The translations under genes and the position numbers were made by a program. This document shows, piece by piece, positions 40,099 to 57,533 of a stretch of DNA of 64,000 nucleotides (the stretch's first letter is position 1; every line of letters begins with the position of its first letter). Below the pieces are notes generated by a model that saw only the letters and a program-made list of their open reading frames with translations, had not been told where the DNA came from and ran no database searches. Source of the DNA: Methanosarcina sp. MSH10X1 (lineage in GTDB: Archaea > Halobacteriota > Methanosarcinia > Methanosarcinales > Methanosarcinaceae); the NCBI RefSeq assembly GCF_004099695.1, contig NZ_SCHL01000019.1, forward strand, positions 1-64,000, read 5' to 3'.

Positions 40099-41283
40099 AT
40101 GGCAAAGAAAGTTGCACTTGCATATTCAGGAGGGCTTGACACCTCGGTGTGCATTCCCATCCTCAAGGAAAAGTACGGATACGATGAAGTAATTACAATC
40201 TCGGTCGATGTCGGCCAGCCTGAAGAGGAAATCAAAAGGGCGGACGTAAAAGCCGAGAAGATCAGCGACAAGCATTATACAATCGATGCAAAGGAAGAGT
40301 TCATAAGAGACTACATCTTCCCCCTCATCAAAGCCAACGGAAGCTACGAAGGCTACGTAATGGGAACTTCGGTTGCCCGCCCCCTGATCGCCAAAAAAGT
40401 GGTAGAGGCTGCCAGAAAAGAAGGCGCAGTCGCCCTTGCGCACGGCTGCACAGGGAAAGGCAATGACCAGCTCCGTTTCGAAGCCGTTTTCCGCCAGACC
40501 GACATGGATGTTATCGCCCCGATGCGGGAAATGAACCTGACCCGCGAGTGGGAAATCGAGTACGCAAAAGAGCACGGAATCCCTGTGGAAGCCACAAAAT
40601 CCAAGCCCTGGAGCGTTGACGAAAACATCTGGAGCCGCAGCATCGAAGGCGGCAGGCTTGAAGACCCCTCTTTTGTCCCGCCCGAGGAAATCTATGAGTG
40701 GACAACCTCTCCTGAAAAAGCCCCTGACCAGCCCAGGATTATTGACATCGGTTTCGAAGCAGGTGTCCCAATCTCCCTTGACGGCGAAACCCTCAGCGGC
40801 TACGACCTCGTTAAGAAGATGAACGTCATTGCAGGCGAAAACGGCGTCGGCAGAACCGACATGATTGAAGACCGTGTGCTGGGCTTAAAAGCCCGCGAGA
40901 ACTACGAGCACCCCGCTGCAACCGTCCTCCTCGCAGCCCACGCCGACCTCGAAAAACTCGTCCTCACCCGCGGGGAACTGAAGTTCAAGAAAATCGTCGA
41001 CGACCAGTGGTCCGAAATGGCATACGCCGGCCTGGTGGACGACCCCCTCTTTGCCGACCTCAACGCCTTTATCGACAAGTCCCAGGAAAGGGTCACAGGC
41101 ACAGTAAAAGTGAAGCTCTACAAAGGCGCCCTCACAATCCTTGCCCGCAGTTCGCCGAATGCCCTCTATTCCGAGGATCTGGTTTCATTTGATAGTAAGA
41201 CGATTGACCAGAAGGATGCAGAAGGGTTTGCGAAGTATCACGGGTTCCAGGCGAGGATGTACAGGAAGGTAATGGAAAAATAA
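40099..41283 (+). CDS. argG: Argininosuccinate synthase
   Basis: A 394-residue enzyme that joins citrulline and aspartate using ATP. The P-loop-like [10 protein letters not shown] is at residues 8-17, with [13 protein letters not shown] and [14 protein letters not shown] further on. GGGG SD precedes ATG 40099. A 228-base gap separates it from carB, so it probably has its own promoter. A diverged copy of codons around residues 337-364 lies 1.5 kb downstream (42722-42806), beyond a horizontally acquired-looking gene. Confidence 0.96.
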
Positions 41284-41635: not shown

Positions 41636-42628
41636 TTATAAGCACTTTGTTGTAAGGATCTGTATTTGTTCCTCAGTAAGAGAAATATCATCACGAGAAA
41701 AAATGTGCCTTACTGAGTTATTCACTTGAAACTTATTTTTGTCAATAACACTTTGAAGATTATCATCTCTTATTTTGGGTGGATATTCATATGAAGAGGA
41801 ATCGTACATGAGCAAACAAATTTTTGGGCTTAGGGGGAAGTAGATTTTACATCCTTTTCGGACTTGGCACTCTTTGTATGGATCAAAATCAGTTATGTTA
41901 TCTACTGCAACTGGGTTGTCTGAGGTCCAATAAGACGAATTAGTTTGGTTTATATATAGTGTCCAACCCATGCTTAAAAAGACATTTCTATTTTTTTCCA
42001 TGGTACTAAACATAGCTGTTATATGAAGATACGGTAGTAACTCTTCCATATAAAGCAAACACACTAAAGTTTCGATTTCGTTAGCAGATTTTGCTTTTTC
42101 TATCCGTTCTTTTATAAAGCGGCAAGTAGTGTTTTTAATATTATCTCTTTGTGCTTTAGTTCTTCTATACTGAAAAAAGACTGATAAAGCAAACAACACT
42201 TTTTCATATTCACTCAATTGAGCTAAATCTTCTGAGTCTATTATTTTTTTGTGTACTTTACTAAACTCAGTTTCAAGAACACTAAGAAACTGCTCAAGAG
42301 AAATAACAAATAGGGGTTCTTCACCGGCATTCAATTCAGCTAAATCTTTTAAATTTTTAATTTCTTTGTACACTTTATTCAACTTAGATTTATCAGCTTT
42401 ATGAATATTTAAAAATCGTTTATAAAAATAATCCGGTTCGCCTTTAATGATATCGTAAAAATAATCTTCACAGGCAACATTCTTTATGTTAGTTTTAAAA
42501 TATTTCTTTGTATATTTGTCAAGTGTATATATATGATATTCTTTCTTTTTCATTGTTGAAAATTGTCTAAGGTAAAACTTTGGTACATAATGGTGACTTA
42601 TAGGTTGTTGATCATTTGATTCGCTCAT
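41636..42628 (-). CDS. DUF4238 domain protein
   Basis: A 330-residue soluble protein with the DUF4238 N-terminal signature HHYVPKFYLRQF. It is Lys/Tyr/Ile-rich, with AT-rich codons unlike argG beside it, which fits horizontal acquisition. Another conserved-looking patch is YWTSDNPVAV at about 235. The family is scattered among bacteria and archaea, and its activity is unknown; members are sometimes seen in genomic islands. It is in the same direction as the large helicase protein but separated by about 200 bases containing an argG remnant. Confidence 0.8.
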   Translation of the reverse strand: MSESNDQQPISHHYVPKFYLRQFSTMKKKEYHIYTLDKYTKKYFKTNIKNVACEDYFYDIIKGEPDYFYKRFLNIHKADKSKLNKVYKEIKNLKDLAELNAGEEPLFVISLEQFLSVLETEFSKVHKKIIDSEDLAQLSEYEKVLFALSVFFQYRRTKAQRDNIKNTTCRFIKERIEKAKSANEIETLVCLLYMEELLPYLHITAMFSTMEKNRNVFLSMGWTLYINQTNSSYWTSDNPVAVDNITDFDPYKECQVRKGCKIYFPLSPKICLLMYDSSSYEYPPKIRDDNLQSVIDKNKFQVNNSVRHIFSRDDISLTEEQIQILTTKCL

Positions 42629-42721
42629 ACTTCTTCATAATATGTAATTTGCTTAAAACTTACGTTTTTTTCTTTTTTAGAGTTGTTAAATAGTTATTCC
42701 TTTACTTTATCTTATAAACAT

Positions 42722-42806
42722 ATAGTGAAGGTCAAACTCTACAAAGGCGCACTTACTATCCTTGCTCGCAGCTCTCTAAATGCCCTTTATTCCGAAGACC
42801 TGGTTT
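42722..42806 (+). pseudogene. Remnant of argG (internal fragment)
   Basis: The bases encode [17 protein letters not shown] then NALYSEDLV, matching argG codons near 41105-41190. Most differences are at third codon positions, so this comes from a diverged argG allele and not from a fresh copy. It lacks both the start and the last 30 codons of the gene. Confidence 0.8.
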
Positions 42807-42829
42807 GTTCGTTTTTTCTAGAGATACGT

Positions 42830-45800
42830 TTAATGCTGAATAATTTGCTTAGCAGTAACGGTCTCTTTGAAGTATAACATATTATTCGGTAGTTTTGTCA
42901 GGTGGTTATCTTGTATTAGAGACTCAATTATATTGTTAATTTTATCTTTAGCGTTCTTTCGTACCACTTTAATTCCAAGAACTCGTGCCGCCTGAGATGT
43001 TAGATCTTCCTGAGCAGTAGAGTACTGGTTATTAAGAACAAAAAATACAGCTTGAGCTATTTCCTCATCGCAAATCCATTCAATTTTCACTGATGTGTCC
43101 CCGCAACGTTTTCTCAATAAACAATCAGGCTCAGAATCTGGCCAAAGAAAATGATCTTTAATCAATATCTTTTTTGATTTCTCCGCAGATTTAATTGCAC
43201 TCTGAATCGTGCTTTTTATTACGTTTCCAGCACGTGCAATTCCAAAGTGCATTTTAACGCGTTGAATTAGCTCATCTGAATGGATAGGTCCCTCAATCTT
43301 AACAATCTTTGTAATTATTTCTTCTAATTGAAATTCATATAATTCAGAGAAATCTTTTGTAGAAATATCAGTCAGTGGACAAATTTTATATTTTGGAATT
43401 TCATTTTGAGGCTTTTCCAATGTTTCATTCTGCGATGTAAAACAATTGATCACATTGGTTTTCTCATCATTCCTGATCTTATCCTGATAAGTCTCCGAAT
43501 TATTTTTCGGACTAATTCCTTCAGTCATCTTGCTTAATTTTGTGCTTTCTATAGCTTCCAATAACTTTTTCCCACTTTCTACAGGGTGACGATACCAATC
43601 TGTTGACCATACTCTGTAAATTTTCCATCCAAGCTCCTCCAATCTTTGTTGACGTAACCTATCACGATCGCGTGCAACAGGCGAAGAATGGTACTGTGCA
43701 CCATCACATTCAATTCCAATGAGATAACGTCCACGATTACGCTGATCTACAATTGCAAGGTCAATTCTATAGGCAGCACATCCAACCTGTTTATGAACTT
43801 CGTATCCATTGTCTCTCAGGAATTCGTACACGGAATCCTCAAATGGTGAGTCGCTATCTTCGCCAGGACCAGATATTGGATTAAAATTTTTAGTTTCTGC
43901 ATATTCAAGAAAAGTTTTTAGGGCTTTCAAACCAACTGAAGCACTCCCGTCAATGCTTAGATCTTTTGCTGTGAAATTCGAGAAAACAATACACTTCTCA
44001 CGCGCTCTGCTGATCAAAACATTAAGTCTTCTTTCCCCACCTTCCTGATTAAGAGCACCGAAACTGCGGGACAACTTATGATAAGAATCAAATCCGAAGC
44101 CTACACTTATGAAAATAATATCTCTTTCATCTCCCTGAATGGTCTCGATATTTTTAACAAAAAATTTCTCACTTTTTTCATTTTTAAAGTATATTGCAGG
44201 ATCTTGATGTATGAGTAAATCTATTTCATTTAATATTGCTTGCTGCTGTTTGGTATTGAAAGTACCTACTCCAATACTTTTAGAGGGATAAAGGTTATAT
44301 TGTTCTAGAACAGCTTTTGCAACTGCATGCGCTTCTCCAAGATTTACACTGCTTTTACCTCTATCGTATATAGTATCCGGAAGATGCACAAATTTTAATC
44401 CGAGATTTTCACTATCATGCATGGGAGAGGGGTATACGTAAAGGCGATTATTATAGAATTCACGGTTAGAAACTGCGATCAAAGAGTCATGTCTGCTCCG
44501 ATAGTGCCAGAGAAGTGATTTTGAAGGAAAACTTCTCTTGCACATATTCAAAATACTTTCCATATCTTTATAATCTGAATCATCATCAGGATCAAAGTCT
44601 AAAGCATCAGCAACATGATCAAAGAAGCTTGTTGGAGGAAGTTGGCGAGAATCTCCCATCACAACGGCTTGATTTCCACGCAACAGAGCTCCAATTGCGT
44701 CTTCGGGCTTAACTTGACTGGCTTCATCAAAAACAATTACATCAAATTTTGTTGTGCTTGGGTCAAGGTACTGAGCAACTGAGAGAGGACTCATCATAAA
44801 ACAGGGTTTTATTTTCTGTATTAAGCCTCCAGCTTTAGTCATGAGTTTTCTAATTGGTAGGTGGCCACGCTTTCGAGTAAACTCTTTTAAGAGGATGCCA
44901 GCTTCAGAATCTTTTGAAGCTCCAGAAGATAAATTAGGTCTATGACAGTATGCTTCGTATGCGATACGTTGACGATTTAAGAAAATAACTCTTTTATCGA
45001 GTTCTTTAAATTTGCTGATCTTATTATCCTGAAGTTCTTTAACAAATTCTGGAAGGAACTTTTTTTCTCTAAAAATAATTCTCAATAAACTATCTACGTA
45101 GTTACCTTTAAACGCATACACAAGGTCTTCTGCAATAATTTTATCATTATCAATTAAATGGATTAAAGGTGCTGCAACGGTATGTAAACACTTGTTTCTG
45201 TGATTGATGAAATGACTCCATGTGATAAGCGATGACTGTTCGTACTTCCACAAGTTTAATTTATTTTTTGTCTCTTCAAATGTAACGTCATCAAAACTTC
45301 TTCCAAATATAGTTTCAAAGTCTGGCTTGATTAGTCTGAACAATGAATTTTGCTGGTCTACCAATTTAGTGTTAATTTGCTGTATATTTTTAATATCCAA
45401 ACTCAAATCTTCCTTGTTAGAACCTTTGCTTATTAGCTTACAAGCATTTTCTGAGAGTTTGCCTTCTAATACACACCTTTTAAAAGAAACAATCATTTTA
45501 CTGAGATCTTCCAATGATTTGGGGTCTGTTTTTTCATTATTCCAATAAATTCCAAAAAACTTTTTTCCTCTAGATTGTAAGCTCTCAAAATTCTCTAGTG
45601 TTAACTTCAAGTCAGATACATAACGTAAGTCTTCTAAGATTTTAATATCATCAGAAGGAGGCTTTGAGTTATAATAACTTTGAATTTCACGTTTAGTCTT
45701 TTTATATTTTGAACTTAAAAATTTTAGGAACTTTGAAGACAATGATTTAAAAGAAGAAACATCAATCTCTAATATAGAAATTTTAAATTTATCTTTGACA

Positions 45801-47596
45801 ATTGAGTCCAGTTCTTGATATTTTCTTAATTCTAATATGAGCTCCTCTGCATCTTTATTTGGAGAGTTCCACTCTGGATTTTTTAGAACCTCTTCATCTA
45901 TCTGAGGCATTGAGACAATAATTTTAGCAGCATCAATTAAAGGGATGAGTTGAGATTCTGATAAAGGAGTATCAGTTCCAGTAAGATTCACCACTTTTTT
46001 AACTAGGGATTCTAGATCTGAGACCGATTGCAAAGTCTCATCAATTAATTTATTAAGCTCCTCAATGTCAGGAGGCAAAAGGTCATCGGGTTCACAACCT
46101 CTCCAAGGGTTAGATGATACTGTGTTTATAGAAGGTAACAATTCTGTCAACTTCTCAAGTGTTGAAATTGCTTTATCCCATTGATTATTGTCCCATTTAT
46201 CGGGATCGGAAAACTCAACTCTTAGCATTGATCTATTTACTTTTGTAAAATAAAGTCGGACTTCTTCTCTTAAACCATATAGATTATATAAAGAAATGCC
46301 ACGTTTTCCAATGGGTTCATGAAGAGCCCTTGCATACTCATTTAATTCTGACTTTAACTGCTCTAGTTTATTAATCTCTTGATCAATATTTACCTGTTTT
46401 ATTGGAGGCTTGTTTAAAGTGCGTTCAAGTTCAGACAGTACCTCTTTTTTCTTTGCTTTATTACTGTGAATCTCGAGACATAAATCGCCCAGACCTGTAT
46501 TATCAATACGAGTTTTCACGACTTGTAAAGCTGCCATTTTTTCACTAACAAAAAGTACGCTTTTTCCCTGTACTAGTAATTCAGCAATGGTATTAGCAAT
46601 TGTCTGAGATTTTCCAGTTCCTGGAGGTCCTTCTACAACGAGATTCTTTCCAGCTTTTACATCTTCAATAACTGCAATTTGAGAAGAATCAGCATCCATA
46701 ATATGATATGTATTTTTTGCAGAAAGTTTTATATCAACATCGTTTTCTGAAAAGCTCTGTAAATTCCTTGGATCTGACTTTGGGTTAAAAATTTGTTCCA
46801 TAAGAGGATGATTTGCAGGAGATAAATTTCCAGGCCACGCCACAGGATCCAAGTCTTTGTACATAACGAATTTTTTAAAGTTAAAAAAATCAAGTGAAAT
46901 TTCACTAAGTACTTTCCAATCCTTCTTTTCTGAAATAGCATTTACAACAGATTGGAAATAAGTGTCGATACCAGTTTTTTCATCAGGCATTTCAAATTCT
47001 GGGAGTTCAACACCTTGTTCAGCAAGCTTTGCCTGCAAGGTGATCGATGTAAAGATATCATCTCCAGTCCATTGTAGCGTAAATTTACGTCCCACTCCCG
47101 GACGTTTAAGTTCGACTGGAACAAGAATTAGGGGAGCTTTATGTACGATATTTGAATCTTTGCTCTCTGTCCAATTTAGAAAACCAAGGGCAAGATATAG
47201 TACTGGATATCCTTGTTCTTCAAATACTGAATTAGCTTTATTAGCTATGTAGAATAGACGTTTTTCAAGCTCTTCAGGTTCATAAGGAGTATTAAGGTAA
47301 TTGTCAAAATAATTCTCTGGCTCTTCGTCCTCATTAATTATTGGAGCCCATTTAATATCTGCATTATCAACTGCCTCAAAATCAGTTTTTAATGTGTTAG
47401 AATCCTGATTTATAGCTGGTAAAAACTTCATCGACTTTTCTTGAAGGACAAATATATTGTAAATCTCACGAGGATGTTCATCTATTATCGATAAAGTTTG
47501 ACTTTTTGATACCCTATAGTTAACTAAGTTATTTCTTAGAGAAAGATCTAAAAGATTTTGACGCAAGAGATCTAATTCTTTTTCTATATTCGCCAT
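42830..47596 (-). CDS. Giant DUF4011 / SF1 helicase / nuclease / DUF3320 protein
   Basis: A 1588-residue putative defence protein. Order: DUF4011 N-terminal domain ([14 protein letters not shown] at 14-27); SF1 helicase with Walker [13 protein letters not shown] at about 325; a long coiled-coil-rich insert (about 390-860); Walker [20 protein letters not shown] and [13 protein letters not shown]; later motifs [25 protein letters not shown] and [17 protein letters not shown]; a PD-(D/E)XK Vsr-like nuclease (IDLAIVDQ ... [12 protein letters not shown] ... [12 protein letters not shown], about 1255-1350); and a DUF3320 winged-helix-like region (about 1440-1500). Proteins of this layout have been listed among antiviral candidates. 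Codon use is AT-rich. It may work alone, or with the DUF4238 protein. Confidence 0.88.
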
Positions 47597-47710
47597 ATTA
47601 ACACTGCCAGTATCTAAATTTGAAAATCTATAATGAGAAAGAAGGAACTATTAACGAATCTGCCTTTTTCATACAATTTCTTACAATAAAAATCTTCTTA
47701 ATTTCAATAA

Positions 47711-47885
47711 AATCAGAAAATCTCCCAAGAGGAAGAAGAAACACTTAATTTAAAGAAGCCCTGCAAAGAACTCCTTATAAATCTGCAAATATCACGGTTT
47801 TAGATTCCTCAGATTTTTACAAACATGTTCGAGAAAGATTCCAACAGACCACCGGCGGAAGAAATGTGTTAAAGCTGAATTGAAC
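47711..47885 (+). repeat. Accessory-zone repeat, copy A
   Basis: First of a dispersed family. Shared landmarks are a left edge AATCAGAAA, a hairpin core AAGCCCTGCAAAGAACTCCTT, a GCAAATATCACGG block, ACAAACATGTTCGAGAAAG, and a right edge CAGACCACCGGCGG. It separates the helicase gene from the Fic gene. Confidence 0.75.
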
Positions 47886-47970: not shown

Positions 47971-48903
47971 ATGACACATACCGATACATCCCTGATTAAA
48001 GAAGAACTTCTTGCAAGAATAAACGAAAAAATGGAGCAGTTAACCTCCATGAGACCCATTCCGGCAGATGCTTTAGGCAGGCTCCATGAAGAGATGAGGT
48101 TAGTGCACACTTACCACTCGAACGCAATAGAAGGGAACACGCTAACACTCCAGGAAACAAAACTTGTCCTGGAAGAAGGGCTGACTATTGGCGGGAAATC
48201 TCTCAGGGAACATATTGAAGCGACCAACAATGCAAAAGCTTTTGACCGGATGGAAGAGCTGGCAAAGAAAAAATGTTCAATAGACCATATAATAATTCAG
48301 GAAATCCATGAAATTGTAACCAGAGGCATACTTGAAGATGCAGGTAGGTACCGCACAAGAAATGTCAGGATAGCCGGCGCAGTGAAATCTCCGCCCGATT
48401 GGTCGAAGATAGTGAAACTGATGGATGAACTTATCGAAAAGATATCTGAAAACAGTGAGCATCCAGTTGAAATGGCGTCCTTCCTGCATCACAGGTTTGT
48501 AGAAATTCATCCATTCAGTGACGGAAACGGACGGGTAGCCCGACTTCTCACAAACCTGTATTTGATCTCAAGGGATTACCCTCCTGTCGTGCTCAAAAAA
48601 GAGGACAGGGTAAAATATTACAAGTCCCTTAGAGCCGCGGATGCAGGAAACCTGGGACCATTTGCCAATTTTATAGCAAAATCCGTGGATGAAAACTTAA
48701 CCCTATATCTCTCGATCTCAGGCGGAGCCGATGAATTGATACCCCTTAAAAAACTTTCCTTGGAAACACCTTATTCTCAGGAATATCTCAGTCTACGAGC
48801 AAGACAGGGGCTTCTGGATGCAGTAAAAATAGGAAAGACGTGGCATAGTTCAAGACGTGCGGTTGATCAGTATCTATCCGAGCACGGAAAAAAGGATGTT
48901 TGA
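47971..48903 (+). CDS. Fic domain protein (AMPylator-type) with C-terminal HTH
   Basis: A 310-residue class II Fic protein. The inhibitory helix motif is TYHSNAIEGNTLTL (about 50-63); the catalytic loop HPFSDGNGRVAR is at about 178-189. Fic enzymes transfer AMP or related groups to target hydroxyls, and the inhibitory Glu blocks ATP until released. The last 60 residues (LETPYSQEYLSLRARQGLLDAVKIGKTWHSS...) look like a helix-turn-helix excisionase-type domain, so the protein may bind its own upstream inverted repeat. It is bounded on both sides by accessory-zone repeats. Confidence 0.88.
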   Translation: MTHTDTSLIKEELLARINEKMEQLTSMRPIPADALGRLHEEMRLVHTYHSNAIEGNTLTLQETKLVLEEGLTIGGKSLREHIEATNNAKAFDRMEELAKKKCSIDHIIIQEIHEIVTRGILEDAGRYRTRNVRIAGAVKSPPDWSKIVKLMDELIEKISENSEHPVEMASFLHHRFVEIHPFSDGNGRVARLLTNLYLISRDYPPVVLKKEDRVKYYKSLRAADAGNLGPFANFIAKSVDENLTLYLSISGGADELIPLKKLSLETPYSQEYLSLRARQGLLDAVKIGKTWHSSRRAVDQYLSEHGKKDV

Positions 48904-48995: not shown

Positions 48996-49153
48996 TTCAT
49001 TTCGTATTTGGCGGCCAGTTTCAGACAATCTTTCTTTATCCATAATTCACTTGAAAAATGTCACTTGAATCAGAAATTCCTCCCCCAAAGTAAAATATCA
49101 CTTCGAGCAAAAAAGGCCCTCAAAGGGCTCCTTATAAATCTGCAAAAATCACT
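48996..49153 (+). repeat. Accessory-zone repeat, copy B with extended left arm
   Basis: The right half is missing after ATCACTAATCC. The left arm (ATTTGGCGGCCAGTTTCAGAC, CATAATTCACTTGAAAAATG) is shared with copy D, which shows that the full unit extends about 60-80 bases left of the AATCAGAAA landmark. The core hairpin reads GGCCCTCAAAGGGCTCC. Confidence 0.75.
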
Positions 49154-49375
49154 AATCCTATTATTGCAAATCCTGTAGCTATATTTACAACCTAAAAAAT
49201 GTATGACCAAGTAGTAATGAATGATTGAAAGGATTTCATCTCCTATTTGGGGGGTCAAGTTTCAGATATCTCATATGAAAACAGGATTTGGTTAACAGAT
49301 TTCAACTTAACCAGAAAACAGCCTAAAGAAGAATGAAATCAATTTTAAAAAATAGATGAAAGACAAAAAGGTAAA

Positions 49376-50035
49376 TTACCCGCCCAATGTAATATCCTGG
49401 TCCTGATAGAACTCCAGTGCATTGAATAAGTGTTCTGGCTTAAAATCTGGCCACATTTCATCGATTACATATATGTCCGAATATACCGTTTGAACTGGAA
49501 GCATTCCGCTAAGTCTACATCTTCCTCCCCAGCGAATAAGTAGGTCTATTCTTGGAATATCTGCTGATGCAATATTTTCTATCGTTCTCTTACTATCCGT
49601 GGAGTTATCAAATGCATACATTAAATCCCAATACCAGCCGTAATTTATCAAAAAATTTATCTTTATTTTACCTTTCCCGACTTTGACTCTATTTGTATAG
49701 ACAAGCAGTTCTTCTGGAAACACATCCGAATTAGTGTTACCTATTACAAGTATTTCTGCATCGCGTTTAGAAATTTCCTGAACTGATTTTATACAGGCGT
49801 CAACAAATGCTTTTCTTTGAATTTGAGGCCTTTTTGTGTTGTCTTGAGTAAACCCAAAGAAAGTAATTTCACTTATTCCGATTTTTTCGCATATATCATA
49901 TACTTCCAGGCCTGGAGTTATTCCATTTTTGTATCCCTCATGCTTTTCCAGACCTCGATTTAGAGCCCATCGCCTGTTGCCGTCCGGTATTATGGCTATG
50001 TGCCTTGGTAGTCTTTTAAATTTAGGTATATCCAG
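49376..50035 (-). CDS. cis-prenyltransferase (UppS family) homologue, apparent CTG start
   Basis: Translation from CTG 50035 gives 219 residues. HIAIIPDGNRRWA with KHEGYKNG is the family's isopentenyl/allyl diphosphate signature, and the C-terminal block RIDLLIRWGGRCRLSG ... SDIYVIDEMWPDF matches the second conserved region. Such enzymes elongate polyprenyl diphosphates used as glycan carriers; this one is distinct from typical housekeeping forms in having Trp-Gly-Gly in place of Thr-Gly-Gly, so its product is uncertain. No ATG, GTG or TTG lies in frame before the DGNRRWA motif; the CTG sits seven bases after GGGGG. A GTG at 49723 is internal and would delete the active site. Confidence 0.75.
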   Translation of the reverse strand: MDIPKFKRLPRHIAIIPDGNRRWALNRGLEKHEGYKNGITPGLEVYDICEKIGISEITFFGFTQDNTKRPQIQRKAFVDACIKSVQEISKRDAEILVIGNTNSDVFPEELLVYTNRVKVGKGKIKINFLINYGWYWDLMYAFDNSTDSKRTIENIASADIPRIDLLIRWGGRCRLSGMLPVQTVYSDIYVIDEMWPDFKPEHLFNALEFYQDQDITLGG

Positions 50036-50042
50036 AAAATAA

Positions 50043-50047
50043 CCCCC
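50043..50047 (-). promoter_or_regulatory. SD GGGGG that places the start at CTG 50035
   Basis: On the minus strand GGGGG is followed by TTATTTT and then CTG GAT ATA CCT, the beginning of the conserved cis-prenyltransferase N-terminus. Confidence 0.6.
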
Positions 50048-50135
50048 TATTTCTTTACTTAAAAATGCTATAAATAATCTTTATTGAACTTAGCTAACAA
50101 ATTTATACGCAAAGTCTAGCTGGAAGTTTTATTTT

Positions 50136-50310
50136 AATCAGAAACCCCTCCCCAAAAGTAAAAGATCACCTCGATCGAAAAAGGCCCTGCAAAGGGCTCC
50201 TTCTAAACCTGCAAAATCACAGCTTTTCAATCTCACTATTTTCTTAACAAACGTATTCGGGGAAGATTCCAGCAGACCGCCGGCAGGAAAAATATATTTA
50301 AACTGAACTG
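50136..50310 (+). repeat. Accessory-zone repeat, copy C
   Basis: A near-complete copy: AATCAGAAACCCCTCCCC, the hairpin GGCCCTGCAAAGGGCTCC, ACAAACGTATTCGGGGAAG, and CAGACCGCCGGCAGG followed by AAAATATATTTAAACTGAAC. Copy D follows after 262 bases, so C and D are effectively tandem. Confidence 0.85.
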
Positions 50311-50397
50311 GAAACAGGGAAGATTTTCTTTTCGATTTTGGCGGTCCGGTTTCGACAGCTTATCTTGATCCATAATTCACTTGAAAAATGTCACTTG

Positions 50398-50565
50398 AAT
50401 CTGAAAAATCCCTCCCCAAAGGAAGAGATCACTTCGAGGAAAAAAGGCCCTGCAAAGGGCTCCTTCTAAACCTGCGAAAATCACGGGTTTTTCAATTTCA
50501 CTTTGAATTTACAAAAGAATTCGGGGAAGATATCAGCAGACCGCCGACAGGAAAAATATATTTTG
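50398..50565 (+). repeat. Accessory-zone repeat, copy D
   Basis: Shares all landmarks with copy C. It ends 38 bases past the stop of the hicB gene at 50603, which is read toward it. Confidence 0.85.
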
Positions 50566-50602
50566 AGCTACTTAAAAAAGATTTAACAATGAGAAATATA
50601 AC

Positions 50603-50845
50603 TTACACAACTTCGGAACCGGTAGAGGGTTTTTCAGCAATAGCCACATACTCGGCAAAAGATTCTGATTTCGGAATGGGTAAATTATCCTCCAGCAACC
50701 CCTGCACATGCATCTCAATAGCTTCGTGGATATTCCTCTCTGCCTCTTCTCGGGTGGAACCGGTAGCCACACAGCCCGGCAGGTCAGGAGAGTACGCTGA
50801 ATAGTTATTGTTTGCTTTTTCGATTACAACAAGGAAACGGTACAT
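50603..50845 (-). CDS. hicB: HicB-family antitoxin
   Basis: An 80-residue HicB: YRFLVVIEKANNNYSAYSPDLPGCVATGSTREEAERNIHEAIE is the degenerate RNase H-like fold with its PGC signature. HicB neutralises HicA. The gene begins two bases after the hicA stop, in toxin-antitoxin order. No separate DNA-binding domain is visible. Flanked by accessory-zone repeats D and E. Confidence 0.9.
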   Translation of the reverse strand: MYRFLVVIEKANNNYSAYSPDLPGCVATGSTREEAERNIHEAIEMHVQGLLEDNLPIPKSESFAEYVAIAEKPSTGSEVV

Positions 50846-50847
50846 GG

Positions 50848-51042
50848 TTAGCTCTCCATTTTCAATTGAGCTTGTTTTAATATGCTGTTCAAAGTGCCGG
50901 GTGCAAGGTCATCTCCACCATGACCTGCAATTGTTACCCTGCCTGGTTTGGTTGGGTGCTTATACTGCCTGTGACTGCCTTTTGTAGCAACCAGATACCA
51001 ACCATCGGCTTCAAGAAGTTTAATAACCTCACGCACTTTCAT
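50848..51042 (-). CDS. hicA: HicA-family toxin
   Basis: A 64-residue dsRBD-like mRNA interferase. The catalytic His is in KGSHRQYKHP, and VTIAGHGGDDLAPGTLNSILKQA is the conserved C-terminal half. It is the first gene of a hicA-hicB operon. The decayed HicB gene at 51065 lies immediately upstream on the same strand. Confidence 0.9.
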   Translation of the reverse strand: MKVREVIKLLEADGWYLVATKGSHRQYKHPTKPGRVTIAGHGGDDLAPGTLNSILKQAQLKMES

Positions 51043-51064
51043 ATTAATCTGTATTCAGGGGTAT

Positions 51065-51295
51065 TTAAATATAATTCGAAAACTTGCAGAATCCAGGCAG
51101 AAGCAGTCCGTTTCTTAATCTGATGACAATCCATTCATCAATAACTTCTTTCAGGTTTCTGCGGCATTCTTCCAAGATCTTGCCAGTAGCCCATACACCC
51201 TCAAGTTCGGGAACTTCTCCATAATATGGTTATTCGTCATCGATTATTTCGTATTTTGCCCTCTCAAGAGCTGCCTGGGTGTATTGTATAAGCAT
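51065..51295 (-). pseudogene. Decayed HicB-family gene with in-frame TAA
   Basis: From ATG 51295 the frame reads MLIQYTQAALERAKYEIIDDE, then TAA, and continues in the same frame as PYYGEVPELEGVWATGK and LEECRRNLKEVIDEWIVIR, a HicB-like core. The interruption is a single nonsense codon (likely GAA to TAA). TAA is not the pyrrolysine codon, so readthrough of that kind does not apply. Confidence 0.8.
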
Positions 51296-51417
51296 GATAA
51301 GACTCCTGTCCGAACTTTTTTGTATTTACTTTTATGCTGTCTAGATCTTATATAGATTCTACGGATCGGTTGATTAAGTTTTGGATTCTTGGCACTTAAT
51401 AGAGGAAGAAATAAATT

Positions 51418-51566
51418 AAACTTATCAGCCCTGCAAAGTGCCCCTTCTTAAGCTGCAAAAATCACGGGTTTTTCAATTTCGCTTTTCTTTACTTTATCTT
51501 CACAAACGTATTCGGGGTAGGTTTAAGCAGTCCGGTGGCAGCAAAAATATATTAAAACTGAACTGG
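51418..51566 (+). repeat. Accessory-zone repeat, copy E (left end missing)
   Basis: Begins near AGCCCTGCAAAGTGCCCCTT and runs to the right edge AAAAATATATTAAAACTGAAC. It separates the hic locus from the TumE-like pair. Confidence 0.8.
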
Positions 51567-51670
51567 TAAAATGAGTGAAATTGCTCACAAAGAAGATCAA
51601 AAGAAGATAACTCAGACCTGGACTTTTCTAAAATGTATTTCTAGTGTACAGTAATGAAAAATTATGAGAA

Positions 51671-52030
51671 TCATGGATTTAAACTCAGTAGTTTCTTCAC
51701 CTTACGGAGAACATCTTCTATAAATACTTCGGGAGATTCTCTGGGTTCTGCTTCATTTCCTTTATGGACATGATAGGGGAACGTTTTTAGATTTTTCCAG
51801 TGTGGAGAATTATCCCAACGCTTTATCATTGCATCCTCTTTTTGCAGGTGATAAGAATATCGTCTGAAATCGGGGCCCACACTCTCACTAATCTCCAATA
51901 GGTAGCCATCTTTGAGAGTTGCTCTTGCTTTTAAAGCCTGGACAGGAGGTTCAACTATTGCTTTGAGAACTTTTAATTCAAGTACAATCTCACTGGATGA
52001 AAGAGCAGAAACGATTTTGCTTATAGTCAT
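51671..52030 (-). CDS. DUF6516 / TumE-like toxin candidate
   Basis: A 119-residue protein starting at ATG 52030 (MTISKIVSALSSSEIVLELKVLKAIVEPP); its ATGA overlaps the stop of the upstream gene by four bases, a strong sign of a two-gene unit. The RATLKDGYLLEISESVG and YSYHLQKEDAMIKRWDNSPH segments match the DUF6516 pattern, a family of small toxin-like proteins with a conserved RWDN(S/A)PH motif. The expected activity (nucleic-acid targeting) is family inference only. Confidence 0.75.
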   Translation of the reverse strand: MTISKIVSALSSSEIVLELKVLKAIVEPPVQALKARATLKDGYLLEISESVGPDFRRYSYHLQKEDAMIKRWDNSPHWKNLKTFPYHVHKGNEAEPRESPEVFIEDVLRKVKKLLSLNP

Positions 52031-52338
52031 AAGAACTTTTCCCAATATCGTGATGCTGTGACATAGCTTTCCCAGATTATGAAATCATCCCACTCTTCAA
52101 AGTCTTCTTCCTCTACTCTCGATTGGATTCTTTTTTCAAAAGCAGAAAAATCCATACCGTACTTTTTCTCCATTTCAGCTACCTTTTTACCATAGTAATC
52201 AATCTTTTGTTCAGCCTGGTCATGCACAAGTTGCTTTAATGCCTCCTGTTCGTCTTTATAAAGGCCTACTTTCACCATGTCACTTATAGGCTCAAAGATT
52301 TTACGAGGAATTTTTACGTACTCGATAGCTTCTCCCAA
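52027..52338 (-). CDS. Partner (candidate antitoxin) of the TumE-like protein
   Basis: Translated from TTG 52338, five bases after GGTGA, the protein has 103 residues; a GTG at 52347 would add three. The N-terminus IEYVKIPRKIFEPISDMVKVGLYKDEQEAL resembles ribbon-helix-helix-like antitoxin starts, followed by a charged helical region (FEKRIQSRVEEEDFEEWDDF). Proteins of this kind often precede DUF6516 genes in archaea. Specific family not firmly recognised. Confidence 0.65.
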   Translation of the reverse strand: MGEAIEYVKIPRKIFEPISDMVKVGLYKDEQEALKQLVHDQAEQKIDYYGKKVAEMEKKYGMDFSAFEKRIQSRVEEEDFEEWDDFIIWESYVTASRYWEKFL

Positions 52339-52506
52339 TAGTATCACCTAACTAGCATTTTGTCTCTCCAATCTTAAATGTATTTGTATACTCATAGAAT
52401 TTGTCTTTTCCACCACATTTGCAAAAATAGTTTTAAGAAATTAAAGCAACAGTCAGTCGGAGAAATATATTTCAATTGAAATGAACGTGAAGAAGAGTTC
52501 ACTTCC

Positions 52507-52690
52507 AATCAGAAAATTCCCTCCCCAAAGGAAAAAATTCACTTCGATCAAAAAAGGACCTGCAAAGGGCTACTTCTAAACTCTTTTAGATTTAGAAACT
52601 CTCGGTTTTTTAGTTTTTCAATATCTACAAACGTATTCGGGGAAGATTTAGCAGACCGCCAGCAGGAAAAAATATATTAAAACTGAATTT
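52507..52690 (+). repeat. Accessory-zone repeat, copy F
   Basis: A full copy from AATCAGAAAATTCCCTCCCC to AATATATTAAAACTGAA, between the TumE-like pair and the next hic locus. The hairpin core reads GGACCTGCAAAGGGCTAC. Confidence 0.85.
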
Positions 52691-52722
52691 TGTTAGGTAA
52701 AACAACTAAACTCACAAAGATT

Positions 52723-52947
52723 TTACTTTAAAAGAGCTTCAAATTCTTCCACCGTCAGTCCTGAGGCTTTTATCAAGTTTCTTAAAAGGCCCGGTTTCAG
52801 TTCTTTGTGCTTCGGGACTGTCAACGTAACCTTTGATCCCTCTTTTCTCAGGACAACATGACTTCCTACCTGCCGGTGAGGAAACCAGCCAGCTTTAGAA
52901 AAGGCTTTAATTGCCTGCATCCCGGAAATCACAGGAAGTCCAGACAT
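52723..52947 (-). CDS. hicA: HicA-family toxin, second locus
   Basis: A 74-residue HicA with catalytic His in VGSHVVLRKEG and VPKHKELKPGLLRNLIKASGLTVEEF at the C-terminus. Its start directly abuts the hicB stop, so here the order is antitoxin then toxin, opposite to the first locus; the two loci are therefore not recent copies of each other. Confidence 0.9.
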   Translation of the reverse strand: MSGLPVISGMQAIKAFSKAGWFPHRQVGSHVVLRKEGSKVTLTVPKHKELKPGLLRNLIKASGLTVEEFEALLK

Positions 52948-53166
52948 TCAAGCAACCACATCAACCACTCTGCAGGAGGACTTTCCAATGCATTCCTGCA
53001 GTTCATCTTCTGCCAAGGATTCCAAACAGGCTTGAATTGCTTCTTTTATATTTTCAATAGCTTCTTCTGTCGTGTCTCCCTGCGAAAAACAGCCCGGTAA
53101 ACCTGGGCAGCTAGCAATAAATCCCCCTGCTTCTTCATCTTCCTCAAGGATAATTTTGAACCGCAT
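52948..53166 (-). CDS. hicB: HicB-family antitoxin, second locus
   Basis: A 72-residue HicB: MRFKIILEEDEEAGGFIASCPGLPGCFSQGDTTEEAIENIKEAI. The C-terminus ends with a Val-rich tail (SCRVVDVVA). First gene of the hicB-hicA pair; sits between accessory-zone repeats F and G. Confidence 0.9.
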   Translation of the reverse strand: MRFKIILEEDEEAGGFIASCPGLPGCFSQGDTTEEAIENIKEAIQACLESLAEDELQECIGKSSCRVVDVVA

Positions 53167-53268
53167 AAATATCGCTTATAAGGCTTTTTGTTTAAATTTG
53201 TATGGGTAAAAGGGGTTAACTTCAGACAGCTTTACGAAAACAGAATATAGTTGACAAGTTTTCACTTT

Positions 53269-53450
53269 AATCAGAAATCCCTCCCCCAAAGGAAAATATC
53301 ACTTCGAGCAAAAAAGACCCTGCACAGGGCTCCTTAAAACTTACAAAGATTAAGGGTTTTTAGTTCTCTTTTCTTAACATCATCTTTACAAACGTGTTGG
53401 GGGTAGATTTAAGCAGACCGTCAGCAGGAAAAATATATCTTAATTTAATT
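53269..53450 (+). repeat. Accessory-zone repeat, copy G
   Basis: A full copy from AATCAGAAATCCCTCCCCC to AAAAATATATCTTAATTTAA, with hairpin ACCCTGCACAGGGCTCC. Separates hicB-hicA from mntA-hepT. Confidence 0.85.
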
Positions 53451-53549
53451 GAACGTTAAAAAGTTTTCACCCTCCTTCTTTAGTAGTTATAAATACTACA
53501 ACCGCAAATACTACAGCATATCAAGAGGAACCAGACAGAGCCTGAAAAA

Positions 53550-53855
53550 ATGCCGGAAAGCCGAAAGGAAGCTGAAATCTATATTAGGAAACTCCATGAG
53601 ATGCTCCCTGAGCTTAAAGAAAAGTATCATGTCAGTTATCTGGGTATTTTTGGATCTTACATAAGGGGAGAACAGAAACCCGGAAGCGACCTGGACATAC
53701 TCGTTGAGTTTTCCAGAACCCCTACTATTTTTAAATTTGTCAACCTTGAAAACTACCTTTCGGATGCCCTAGGTATCAAAGTGGATCTGGTTATGAAAGA
53801 CGCTTTAAAGCCGAACATAGGCAAACACATCCTGAGTGAAGTTGAAGCTGTTTGA
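53550..53855 (+). CDS. mntA: MntA-family nucleotidyltransferase (antitoxin of HepT)
   Basis: A 101-residue minimal nucleotidyltransferase with the hallmark GSYIRGEQKPGSDLDIL (GSx10DxD) at about 35-51 and a later Asp in IKVDLVMKD. In MntA-HepT systems this protein AMPylates HepT on a tyrosine and thereby silences it. It lies 12 bases upstream of HepT in the same frame. The SD for ATG 53550 is weak. Confidence 0.88.
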   Translation: MPESRKEAEIYIRKLHEMLPELKEKYHVSYLGIFGSYIRGEQKPGSDLDILVEFSRTPTIFKFVNLENYLSDALGIKVDLVMKDALKPNIGKHILSEVEAV

Positions 53856-53856
53856 A

Positions 53857-53861
53857 GAGGG
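53857..53861 (+). promoter_or_regulatory. SD GAGGG that places the HepT start at ATT 53868
   Basis: GAGGG follows the mntA stop directly and stands six bases before ATT CGC GAA GCA, the start of the conserved HepT N-terminal helix. Confidence 0.5.
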
Positions 53862-53867
53862 ATCGAT

Positions 53868-54203
53868 ATTCGCGAAGCAAAAGACTGTATTCAGGATATC
53901 TATGATGCAATGGAAGCAGCAGAAGAATTTGTCAGCGGCTGGACATTTGAAGAGTTTACCGAAGACCGCAAAACCCAGTTTGCAGTAATCAGAGCTCTGG
54001 AAATCATTGGCGAAGCAACAAAGAATATCCCTTCCGAAGTACGCGAAAAATATCCTTTTGTTCCGTGGAAAGATCTGGCAGGGATACGGGACAAGTTGAT
54101 TCATGCTTATTTTGGAGTAAATCTGAAGGTAGTCTGGTTATCCGTTATAGAAGGTATTCCAGAAGCAAAACCTGATATCAAACGCATACTGGATGAGATG
54201 TGA
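53868..54203 (+). CDS. hepT: HepT-family HEPN RNase toxin (DUF86), apparent ATT start
   Basis: From ATT 53868 the protein has 111 residues, the usual HepT length: [24 protein letters not shown], then [13 protein letters not shown] and the catalytic [10 protein letters not shown] (Rx4HxY), the site also modified by MntA. The first standard start is ATG 53910, which would remove the first helix. Between the mntA stop and that ATG no ATG, GTG or TTG occurs in frame. A weak ATT start downstream of the antitoxin would keep toxin output below antitoxin output. The stop codon coincides with the left edge of accessory-zone repeat H. Confidence 0.82.
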
Positions 54204-54381
54204 ATCAGAAAAACCTCCCTTGGAGGAAAAGATCACTTTGAGCAAAAAGGCCCTGCAAAGTGCCCCTTATAAACCTGCGAAAATCACGAGTTTTTCAATT
54301 TCTCTTTTCTTAAGTTTATCTTAACAAACGTATTAGGGGTAAATTTAAGCAGACCGCCGGCAGGAAAATACATTAAAAACT
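54203..54381 (+). repeat. Accessory-zone repeat, copy H
   Basis: Begins right at the hepT stop (TGAATCAGAAA) and ends near AAAATACATTAAAAACTC. The hairpin core is GGCCCTGCAAAGTGCCCC. Confidence 0.85.
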
Positions 54382-54724
54382 CATCCCAAAATCAAGTTCT
54401 AGTCTTAATTATCAGAATTATTCAGGATTGCTTTCGTAATCCGAGACATGATTGGTTATTTAAAATAAAAGATCCAGGAAAGTAGGTTTTGAGCTTTGGG
54501 ATCGGCTCTAAAATAGAAAATAAGATGCAATGAAAGAAATTTCAGCATTTTTCTATAGTAATTATAAATGCTAAAGTATGATTCAATAGGTCATCTATAG
54601 AATCTTGCCATCAGTAAAATAGACGCGAACCTGCAGAAAAGTAAAACATGTATTTCAGGAATCTTTTTCAGACACCTTTATTTAAGATACCTTTATCAGG
54701 CATCTTTACTCTGATACTTCTAGA

Positions 54725-55078
54725 TCAGTACTTAATGTAGCCTTTCCGTTCAAGCCATTCGACCTGAGGCCTTGTATATTTCCAGGCTACTTCCGCTTTG
54801 GAGTCTTGCACTTCCCAGGGATTGGCTATTACAACGTCTCCTTCGCGAATCCACATCCTCTTCTTTTTAGAGCCTGGAATCCGGCCCATGCGGACAACTC
54901 CATCCATACATTGAAGCGTTACCCTTTTCGAGCCGAGTAAACTCGCAACCGTTGCCAGGACTTCATTTCTGTCCTTGCGAGGAATCCGTACCCTTGATAC
55001 TTCAGGGGTATCTCCTGAGTTTACTGGTTTTGTAGATCCTGATCTTCTTTTTCTAATAGTGCTTCTATAATTAGCCAG
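54725..55078 (-). CDS. eif1A: Translation initiation factor aIF1A, copy 1, apparent CTG start
   Basis: From CTG 55078 the product has 117 residues: [13 protein letters not shown] at the basic N-terminal tail, then the OB-fold [46 protein letters not shown] and the C-terminal helix [11 protein letters not shown]. aIF1A binds the A site of the small ribosomal subunit and assists start-codon selection. The in-frame sequence upstream reads TAA GGA GGA ATT AAC CTG GCT: a stop, the SD, then CTG at seven bases spacing, and the first in-frame ATG (54907) lies inside the OB fold. So a non-AUG start is required. Neighbour: a zinc-ribbon protein gene upstream on the same strand, in the same arrangement as copy 2. 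Confidence 0.88.
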
Positions 55079-55085
55079 GTTAATT

Positions 55086-55090
55086 CCTCC
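55086..55090 (-). promoter_or_regulatory. SD GGAGG that places the aIF1A copy 1 start at CTG
   Basis: GGAGG, seven bases, CTG. An in-frame TAA stands directly before this SD, so no upstream standard start can exist. Confidence 0.8.
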
Positions 55091-55248
55091 TTAATATACT
55101 TTATGATTTTTTATTATAGGTTTTGGGTTGAACAGTTTGTGTCAATCCTCACTTTCGATGCCTGTTTGTTTCTATTCTTCCTTTCCTCAGATGTGGAAAT
55201 AAGTGAAGAAACAAAGAGAATAAACAAAAAAACAAAAAGAAAAGATGA

Positions 55249-55290
55249 ATCAGGCGTTAATGTAACCTTAATTACGAAATAATGCCTGAT
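55249..55290 (-). terminator. Hairpin downstream of zinc-ribbon gene, copy 1
   Basis: ATCAGGC and GCCTGAT form an inverted repeat around an AT-rich loop; on the minus strand it is followed by a T-rich tract (TCATCTTTTCTTTTTG). The same element follows the zinc-ribbon gene of copy 2. Confidence 0.6.
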
Positions 55291-55312
55291 GCAGATTATT
55301 CTTAAAATTTTT

Positions 55313-55493
55313 TGTGGTTAGGAAAACGTTCCCTGTAAAGTGCTCTTTTCAAACTGCAAAAGGTCACAGGTAAATAAGTATATTCAGGTCTAAAATAGAC
55401 CTGAAATATGGAACGAATAAGTGTTGATGTAAACTCAGTTACACAAACAATATTTAGTATCTGCGGTTTTCTCTGGGTGTCCTGTGGTTAGGA
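55313..55493. repeat. 170-bp segment flanked by TGTGGTTAGGA direct repeats, containing repeat copy I
   Basis: TGTGGTTAGGA occurs at 55313-55323 and 55483-55493. The 170-base period is absent from the paralogous site near 57275, where only one TGTGGTTAGGA is present. The segment holds the core of the accessory-zone repeat (CCCTGTAAAGTGCTC, GCAAAAGGTCAC; 55324-55375). Confidence 0.75.
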
Positions 55494-55642
55494 AGACATT
55501 CTCTGCAGTAAACCGGTCTTTCCGGGTCAGGTTTGAAAGGCACTTCTGTCTCAGCTTTACAGTCTGAACAGGTTGTCTTGTGCATTTCTCTGGGAGCGCC
55601 GAAGTTAGAATTTCCTCTGAAGTTTCTGTCATTAAAAGCCAT
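55454..55642 (-). CDS. CxxC-x17-CxxC zinc-ribbon protein, copy 1
   Basis: A 62-residue protein: basic Asn/Arg/Gly-rich head (AFNDRNFRGNSNFG), then CSDC and CREC separated by exactly 17 residues, the pattern of a small zinc-binding family often tied to RNA or nucleic-acid binding. GGTGA precedes ATG 55642. The tail NHRTPRENRRY differs from the copy 2 ending NHRKF because the 170-base segment begins inside the coding sequence. Likely role: nucleic-acid binding, next to aIF1A; not demonstrated. Confidence 0.82.
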   Translation of the reverse strand: MAFNDRNFRGNSNFGAPREMHKTTCSDCKAETEVPFKPDPERPVYCRECLPNHRTPRENRRY

Positions 55643-55707
55643 TTTTGTTTCACCTTGTTTTAGTTTTTGTTATTTGTTTGAAAATAAGATTGTATAGAAC
55701 TCTTTGA

Positions 55708-55731
55708 TTAAAAACAAAAATTGGTTTTTAA
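55708..55731 (-). promoter_or_regulatory. Inverted repeat upstream of zinc-ribbon gene, copy 1
   Basis: TTAAAAAC and GGTTTTTAA arms around AAAAATT form a 24-base near-palindrome about 65 bases before the gene, adjoining a TATA-like CTATACAATC. The same element occurs at copy 2. Confidence 0.6.
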
Positions 55732-55742
55732 TAACAGATGAT

Positions 55743-56330
55743 TATACGGATCTTTATTTGTCAACACACATACATAGCAGTTAAAATATATAAATGTATC
55801 GATGGAAAACACAAAACCAGACTATTCTTTCTTTTCGAGAACCCTTTAATCCTTCCGGATTCATGAATTTCCTGGCTGACATCTGGCTATACTGACGTCT
55901 GGCTATAACTTGACCTGATTTGTGTCTCGCTGTTTAGATATCAGGTTCGTTCAAGAGAGTCGACATAACCCTGTCTTTTTTTTCTCCATCTGAGTATCCT
56001 TTTCGCAATCCAATAAAACACAACCATCTTAAGGACATAAAGTAATATAAGAAACAATATCATGTAACACTCTTGATCTTATTGAGAACAGAATCGCCTG
56101 CTTCATCCAGCTCTTTTTAGATATCAAACATGGTCAACTTGCTCATATAAGCATAATCATTGCGAAACTTCTATGCGGAAGTTGTCTCTGATAATTTTAT
56201 AAATTTCTGTGCTGATCTATTTGTCTATACTTGCATCTTGCACAGCACATATTAAGCTTCCGATTCACAACTCCAAATTGGCTGCTTCTCCTCAATCTGA
56301 ATTGTCAAAAATTTATTCTGTTGATCAACT
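55743..56330. other. Gene-free region between the two aIF1A modules
   Basis: No intact gene is seen. On the minus strand near 56130-56070 a fragment reads MFDI, stop, KELDEAGDSVLNKIKSV, which looks like a decayed small helical protein. Confidence 0.35.
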
Positions 56331-56429
56331 TCAGCCCGTAAAATACTCCTTCTAAATCTACAAAACCCTGGGTTTTAGTTTTTTTAGATTGGGGCATGCA
56401 GCTCGCAGGAAAAATATATTAACATTGAG
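56331..56429 (+). repeat. Accessory-zone repeat, copy J (partial)
   Basis: Retains AGCCCGTAAAATACTCCTTC, CTACAAAACCCTGGGTTTTAG and the right edge GCAGGAAAAATATATTAAC; the left end and the middle are shortened. Confidence 0.65.
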
Positions 56430-56641
56430 TTAAAATAGAATGGAAAAAGTCAGCATTCTTCTATAGCAATCATAAGTGCTAAAGTACATGATACGCCAAT
56501 AAGTTATTGTCTATATAACCTGGCTCGCATCAAAGCAGGCGCGTTCCTGCAGAAAAGTGAAAATATGGATTTCAGGTATCTTTTTCAGACACCTTTATTT
56601 AAGATACCTTTATCAGGCATCTTCAGTCTGATACTTCTAGA

Positions 56642-56995
56642 TCAGTACTTAATGTAGCCTTTTCGCTCAAGCCATTCGACCTGAGGCCTTGTGTATTTCC
56701 AGGTTACTTCGGCTTTGGAGTCCTGCACTTCCCAGGGATTGGCTATTACAACATCGCCTTCGCGAATCCACATCCTCTTCTTTTTAGAGCCTGGAATCCG
56801 GCCCATGCGGACAACTCCGTCCATGCATTGAAGCGTTACCCTTTTCGAACCGAGTAAACACGCAACTGTTGCCAGGACTTCATTTCTGTCCTTGCGGGGG
56901 ATTCTTACCCTGGATACTTCAGGGGTATCTCCTGAGTTTACTGGTTTTGTAGATCCTGATCTTCTTTTTCTAATAGTGCTTCTATAGTTAGCCAG
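56642..56995 (-). CDS. eif1A: Translation initiation factor aIF1A, copy 2, apparent CTG start
   Basis: A 117-residue paralogue nearly identical to copy 1 (for example [10 protein letters not shown] in place of [10 protein letters not shown], and TWKYT in place of AWKYT). From CTG 56995 the N-terminus is [26 protein letters not shown] stands seven bases upstream of the CTG, as in copy 1. Here the frame happens to stay open further upstream, to an ATG at 57187, but those residues are AT-rich non-protein-like sequence upstream of the SD. The two copies arose by duplication of an aIF1A plus zinc-ribbon module; both frames are intact, so both are probably expressed. Confidence 0.88.
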
Positions 56996-57002
56996 GTTAA
57001 TT

Positions 57003-57007
57003 CCTCC
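57003..57007 (-). promoter_or_regulatory. SD GGAGG that places the aIF1A copy 2 start at CTG
   Basis: Same SD-spacer-CTG arrangement as copy 1 (GGAGGAATTAACCTGGC), conserved although the bases further upstream have diverged. Confidence 0.75.
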
Positions 57008-57201
57008 TTGATAATCTATGATTGATTTTTTATAAGTGGAAATTAATGAGTTGAGTTGAAAAATTAATAAGTCGAAAATTGAATGATTCTTACCAATTAT
57101 TATTCTCAATGCCTTTTTGTCCTTACTTTTTCCTGCTGCACGAGTTGAAAATAAGCAAGAAACAAGAGAGAATAAACCAAAAAACAAAAAGAAAAAGATG
57201 A

Positions 57202-57250
57202 ATCAGGCGTTAATGTAAAATTTAATTTTACAAAACTAGTAACACCTGAT
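57202..57250 (-). terminator. Hairpin downstream of zinc-ribbon gene, copy 2
   Basis: ATCAGG and CCTGAT arms plus an inner GTTA/TAAC pairing around an AT-rich loop that is itself partly palindromic (AAAATTTAATTTT), followed on the minus strand by a T-rich tract. Confidence 0.6.
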
Positions 57251-57261
57251 GCAGATTATCT

Positions 57262-57444: not shown

Positions 57445-57509
57445 TTTCGTTTCACCTCCGCTTTAGCAAATAATCAATAGTTAAAAACAAGATTGTATAG
57501 CCCCTTACA

Positions 57510-57533
57510 TTAAAAAACAAAATTGGTTTTTAA
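57510..57533 (-). promoter_or_regulatory. Inverted repeat upstream of zinc-ribbon gene, copy 2
   Basis: TTAAAAAAC and GGTTTTTAA arms, matching the element at 55708-55731 in sequence and in distance to the gene and to the TATA-like CTATACAATC. Confidence 0.6.

Follow-up and report, generated by a model that had tools for sequence, protein, structure and literature searches.

A DUF4238 gene and a PDC-S37-type helicase-nuclease gene as neighbours in a defence hotspot behind argG in Methanosarcina

The DUF4238 gene and the giant PDC-S37-type gene (S37 for short) that lie next to each other in Methanosarcina sp. MSH10X1 probably reached a defence hotspot behind argG one at a time, as separate defence-type genes and not as the two parts of one system. 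An earlier note had presented them as a candidate defence pair, in which constant association elsewhere would point to a new two-gene system. Here, the window is the whole stretch of DNA that was analysed, i.e. the 64,000 nucleotides at positions 1 to 64,000 of contig NZ_SCHL01000019.1 (assembly GCF_004099695.1). Genomes are referred to by our handles, with G000 being the genome of the window.

Two defence-type proteins on one strand

Both ORFs described in the earlier note were recovered on the minus strand, with the following features:

41636-42628, minus strand: DUF4238 protein, 330 aa (PF14022)
42830-47596, minus strand: PDC-S37-type giant, 1588 aa, with DUF4011, SF1 helicase, MTES_1575 (Vsr-like) nuclease and DUF3320 (Pfam, PADLOC, NCBIfam)
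47024-47557, minus strand: DUF4011 domain of the giant (Pfam)
43550-43843, minus strand: MTES_1575 Vsr-like nuclease domain of the giant, residues 1252-1349 (Pfam)

The proposed layout of the giant, joining an SF1 helicase to a Vsr-like nuclease, was borne out by Pfam matches to DUF4011 (E 2.3e-42, residues 14-191), to the helicase parts AAA_11, AAA_12 and AAA_19, to the MTES_1575 REase (E 2.9e-38) and to DUF3320 (E 1.4e-13, residues 1415-1462). The PADLOC candidate defence family PDC-S37 (PDLC05009), whose label we take to mean 'single gene', matches the giant over its full length (1773.5 bits, residues 2-1574, profile positions 2-1544 of 1550). No difference in architecture was found, and the window giant differs in having a DUF4238 neighbour. 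A text search of the literature for PDC-S37 found no paper. In an alignment of four sequences, the stretch at residues 323-330 (which we take to be Walker A; the other motif names are likewise our assumption), DEAS (957-960) and WHYRSR (1030-1035) are invariant, as are D1279, E1296, C1297, D1298, G1299 and H1303 of the nuclease domain. The orthologue in G157 is 89% identical, and residues 298-424 weakly match UPF1 helicase chains. By sequence, the giant is related to the antiphage proteins Hhe (NCBIfam NF042953) and ProA (NF058533), below the cut-offs of both: the Hhe match is long, with its best stretch at residues 663-1396, but reaches 1007.6 bits against a cut-off of 2000, while the ProA match spans residues 6-1543, but reaches 1381.6 bits against 1500 and begins at profile position 358. 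Judging from its domains and conserved motifs, the giant would probably load on foreign or aberrant DNA, move along it by its SF1 helicase and cut it by its Vsr-like nuclease.

The smaller protein belongs to DUF4238 (PF14022, E 9.7e-40, residues 12-314; 137.2 bits against a cut-off of 27, profile positions 2-280 of 281). In an alignment of 14 proteins, it keeps HHYVP with the near-invariant H13, V15 and P16, together with R156-T157, W222, N227, T235-S236-D237-P239, Q301 and R307. Its orthologue in G157 is 88% identical and the next nearest protein, from G399 in the same genus, 46%; identity to the 12 other aligned relatives is 23-29%, and relative to the aligned proteins the window protein has an extra stretch at about residues 62-108. 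PADLOC gave no match at 0.01, and a profile search of PDB sequences none at E 1. An AlphaFold2 model built from the 14 sequences (mean pLDDT 74.1, pTM 0.74) found no PDB match in Foldseek at E 0.001 or better (best 0.39) and a best VIA-align Z of 3.9, too low to interpret; with no fold match, the structure gives no mechanism for DUF4238. A search of viral contigs returned one DUF4238 pattern match, and none was confirmed.

The defence credentials that the earlier note had ascribed to the giant thus extend to both families: in the accessible part of a study of P2/P4 hotspots in E. coli, a lone DUF4238 protein gave strong resistance to T7 (Rousset et al. 2022, PMC9122126), and DUF4238 is among the systems of further surveys, as far as their accessible parts go (PMC11291487, PMC12629846, PMC10855318). 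The window protein falls in the same Pfam family as this published system, but it is archaeal. In the three plasmids viewed of 411 with DUF4238, where annotation is incomplete, no DUF4011 product is annotated within 8 kb of the DUF4238 gene. By analogy with its published relative, the window DUF4238 protein probably acts alone.

Linkage of the two families across genomes

The proposal of a new two-gene system by constant association did not hold in the genomes sampled, although many of these are drafts, in which linkage across contig ends would be missed. Among 392 genomes of the phylum, DUF4238 is present in 16 and DUF4011 in 39 (one below the cut-off). Both families occur in three of these genomes (1.6 expected, p 0.21), and a linked pair in two, i.e. 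in two of the 16 with DUF4238: G000 and G157, of the same genus and with 88% identical DUF4238 proteins. The third, G224, carries the families on different contigs. Where the surroundings of further DUF4238 genes were inspected (up to 20 kb), G157's was the only stretch with an S37-type gene. A second sample, of 345 bacterial genomes from the phylum of Mucilaginibacter, holds DUF4238 in 33 (four below the cut-off) and DUF4011 in 52, with no linked pair in any of the 345 genomes (0 of the 33 with DUF4238). Eleven of them carry both families against 5.0 expected (one-sided Fisher p 0.0046, with genome size uncontrolled and two of the 11 resting on a sub-cut-off DUF4238); in two of these the families share a contig, at distances of about 129 and 329 kb, and in the remaining ones they are on different contigs. 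By the refuting condition set out in the earlier note, that of no association above background, the proposed system fails for physical linkage; against this, genome-level co-occurrence lies above expectation in one phylum, unlinked. A further 13 DUF4238 loci found by protein similarity, at least three of which repeat loci already considered above, had no S37-like match in flanks of up to 10 kb; five of the 13 genomes have a DUF4011 match elsewhere.

The nearest relatives of the two genes also occur one without the other. In a tree of DUF4011 giants (support values not considered), the copies of the window, G157 and G336 group together, next to a core-type Methanosarcina clade. G336, whose S37 is 65% identical to the window's over 1016 aa, has no DUF4238 match. 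G399, which has the closest other DUF4238 gene, contains a single DUF4011 match, and this is of the core type (identity 72-78% with core-type copies, 51% with the window giant), although the DUF4238 contig of G399 stops just upstream of the gene, where an S37 would lie. The window's own genome has one DUF4238 match and two DUF4011 matches, the second of which (contig C52, L073 7407-12893) is a core-type gene of about 1830 residues in a neighbourhood common to other members of the genus; the shared neighbourhood suggests a long-kept role.

We also considered whether DUF4011 giants have a recurrent partner, by clustering the neighbours of 20 of the 42 listed DUF4011 places (L087-L106), of L054, L072 and L073, and of the window. 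A DUF4238 cluster was found only in the window and G157, whereas core-type giants of the genus and giants of family f18 share neighbours within their own group. The equal AT-richness of the two genes, which the earlier note had pointed out, is real (GC of 1-kb steps 0.30-0.38; carB/argG about 0.50), but since the whole stretch from 41 to 64 kb is AT-rich (GC 0.30-0.43), it does not mark out the pair.

The region behind argG: cargo, relics and repeats

The pair lies behind a conserved gene that we take to be argG, and behind which a displaced piece of its own 3′ end is found:

40099-41283, plus strand: argG (presumably argininosuccinate synthase), conserved hotspot anchor, matched in 25 of the 30 genus genomes searched
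42722-42807, plus strand (argG orientation): 86-bp relic of the argG 3′ end (argG nt 1003-1088), between DUF4238 and the giant (nhmmer, BLAST)

The comparison of regions behind argG took in 21 of the 25 genomes in which argG was matched. Which genes stand directly behind argG differs among these Methanosarcina genomes, and the region is a defence hotspot of the genus, with a fixed flank gene and variable defence cargo. Twenty proteins from 14 argG regions were typed with Pfam and PADLOC, giving the following cargo:

G380: GajB and GajA (Gabija)
G366: TmtA and a DrmD-like helicase
G378: NACHT
G400: NB-ARC with TPR; HEPN match below cut-off
G395: SIR2_2 (PDC-S65)
G231: PDC-M02B
G284 and G393: HEAT-repeat proteins
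G397: Kelch repeats
G336: weak repeat matches

For eight of the 20 (L139, L141, L145, L147, L148, L149, L152), neither Pfam nor PADLOC gave a match at the limits used, and these are candidate new defence genes. The NACHT protein is joined in its cluster by a giant of G135, and the gene directly behind argG falls in a HEAT group in six genomes (G284, G304, G221, G406, G393, G289), a grouping that may be loose given the repeats.

Past the giant, the region continues as an array of directly oriented repeats of about 180 bp (REP) with small genes between the copies, among them toxin-antitoxin genes. In the window, the array contains:

47707-47877, plus strand: first REP copy (nhmmer, BLAST)
49062-57900, plus strand: nine further REP copies, starting at 49062, 50131, 50392, 51427, 52503, 53263, 54198, 56335 (weak) and 57723 (nhmmer)
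47971-48903, plus strand: Fic/DOC protein (PDC-S04/SoFic-like), first gene past the first REP (PF02661 2.3e-23; PDC-S04 1.5e-36)
51671-52045, minus strand: TumE toxin (PF20126 7.7e-21)
52027-52347, minus strand: 106-aa gene upstream of TumE, putative antitoxin (no Pfam match at 0.001)
53550-53855, plus strand: MNT-type nucleotidyltransferase (PF01909 2.9e-13)
53910-54203, plus strand: HepT-like RNase (PF01934 6.2e-26)

A REP profile found 210 copies in 17 of the 21 argG regions, all 210 in argG's orientation, and REP matches occur in at least 24 of 30 genus genomes. By BLAST, the window's own genome has nine copies, all on the plus strand at C10:47711-57897 and thus all at argG; confinement to argG does not extend to the genus, as among the matches listed G392, G380 and G327 have copies far from it. 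One such place in G392 (C1:2061704-2087542, about 200 kb from argG) combines REP copies with an argG relic, which would fit a rearrangement that parted argG from its array. The S37 of G336 (C32, L088 1-16000) likewise has REP copies beside it, in the arrangement seen in the window (S37 on the minus and repeats on the plus strand); argG of G336 is on a different contig. Within the window's array, a 115-aa ORF (49376-49723) matches the Prenyltransf (undecaprenyl diphosphate synthase) profile in the profile's C-terminal half only and by this match is a gene fragment or relic; further on, a 63-bp unit forms a perfect tandem pair (63223-63348).

Several simple identities for the REP were tried and rejected. 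It has no Rfam match at E 0.5 between 41 and 60 kb, and 16 copies give a weak consensus fold without covariation. The repeat ends in a stretch that we take to be TATA-like, but a plain promoter is insufficient, as array ORFs lie on both strands (78 plus, 72 minus) and copies stand in tandem.

The two sides of the first REP differ in content. On the argG side, up to the first REP, ORFs have a median length of 421 aa (n=43), which exceeds that in the array (115 aa, n=150; Mann-Whitney p 3e-10), and they are less often shared between genomes (16/43 against 104/150, p 0.0003), p values that are a guide only with related genomes. This comparison covers ORFs of at least 80 aa, some of which are not genes, and leaves aside ORFs overlapping a REP by more than 60 bp and the four of 21 genomes that have no REP.

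Five of the 21 genomes carry displaced fragments of the argG 3′ end behind argG, all oriented like argG itself: G000, G157, G378 (three fragments), G327 and G393. The window relic was recovered at E 2e-21 by nhmmer with a profile of 21 argG 3′ ends, and G157 has one at the same place between DUF4238 and S37 (nt 1002-1088). G393 has its relic flanked by two HEAT-group proteins. In both G327 and G378, a REP copy stands just before a relic that begins at nt 971, the distances being 4 and 10 bp, and G403 has a similar junction of REP and argG nt 971. Two of the G378 relics have left flanks that are 98% identical over 800 bp and are probably copies of one event.

One exchange could be seen directly. 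G157 and G284 (L138, L137) are 95% identical through argG and about 200 bp beyond, and 96% identical again within the REP array (blocks of more than 400 bp), with identity resuming at the first REP of G284, which is within the second REP of G157. Between these edges, G157 carries DUF4238, the relic, S37 and two small ORFs, and G284 a HEAT-repeat gene and two further ORFs; the two genomes differ by the swap of a module between argG and the REP array. In G000 and G157, the pair is part of one shared block of 6.3 kb (89.6% identical) that ends just past the first REP, while argG itself is 93% identical between them. The argG 3′ end would thus form the outer edge of the hotspot and the REP array its inner edge, and the modules between them may be exchanged between strains.

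Probable successive arrival and its alternatives

The relic between the two genes suggests that they arrived separately, as would the occurrence of each gene's nearest relative without the other; the relic would then mark an older argG end. As no REP lies between DUF4238 and the relic, DUF4238 would have arrived without the full pattern of G327 and G378. Alternatively, both genes could come from a donor that already held them in the same order. Against separate genes, pair and relic have been kept together over about 10% DNA divergence between G000 and G157, the argG region of G284 lacks both genes, as could be expected if they worked together, and the two families co-occur above expectation in the bacterial phylum. 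The joint absence in G284, together with the 201-bp gap on one strand, the same order, strand and spacing in two species with 88-89% identical proteins, and intact frames in both, would fit a lineage-specific two-gene system, in which S37 senses and cuts DNA, DUF4238 modulates or executes, and selection holds the pair in G000 and G157. We consider this unlikely, as the genes are unlinked elsewhere in the samples, their nearest relatives lack the other partner, the relic separates them, and the published DUF4238 protein acts alone in the part of that study available to us.

That neither gene is antiviral here, with the giant maintaining the host's DNA or RNA, as its core-type paralogue would, and with DUF4238 as a passenger, is more improbable still. 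It would be in keeping with DUF4011 being present in 14 of the 15 genus genomes of the phylum sample and with the eight core-type genus copies examined having chromosomal neighbours in common, which is unusual for a defence gene. However, the window giant falls in a separate clade with the G157 and G336 copies, is a full-length PDC-S37 and stands in a hotspot with known defence genes.

In integrons, cassette arrays have novel cargo at one end and directly oriented repeats between small genes, and the argG locus shares both traits. It differs in that array genes lie on both strands and in that no tyrosine integrase was found near argG: in five genomes, all 12 PF00589 matches are on other contigs than argG or more than 200 kb away from it (for G393, one of these genomes, the 10.5 kb of argG region covered contain no REP). 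As to folding sites of the attC type, the 16 REP copies gave a weak consensus fold with no covariation. We tentatively propose an integron-like polarised array, in which units that combine a 3′ end of argG with a defence gene and, at their end, a repeat of about 180 bp would insert near argG nt 971, leave argG whole again and move earlier units further inward, with relics and repeats recording the arrivals; a distant recombinase, or homologous recombination between argG ends and repeats, might carry this out.

Core defence hotspots such as cDHS1 of Pseudomonas aeruginosa, as described in the accessible part of PMC10250203, are alike in having conserved flanks with many immune systems between them and no obvious single mobile element, and the right flank of cDHS1 is a DUF4011 gene. 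Different here are argG as the anchor, the relics of its 3′ end and the one-way array of repeats. No account of an argG-anchored hotspot was found in searches of an open-licence library or in the accessible part of an archaeal island survey (PMC4158269).

With this pair, two known defence families gain archaeal members. Of more interest than an ordinary gene pair is the one-way array anchored at argG: with eight of the 20 typed proteins free of any family match, the hotspot offers a definite locus in methanogens from which new archaeal defence genes may be gathered, and its module swap and one-way repeats make it a testable question how archaea exchange defence genes.
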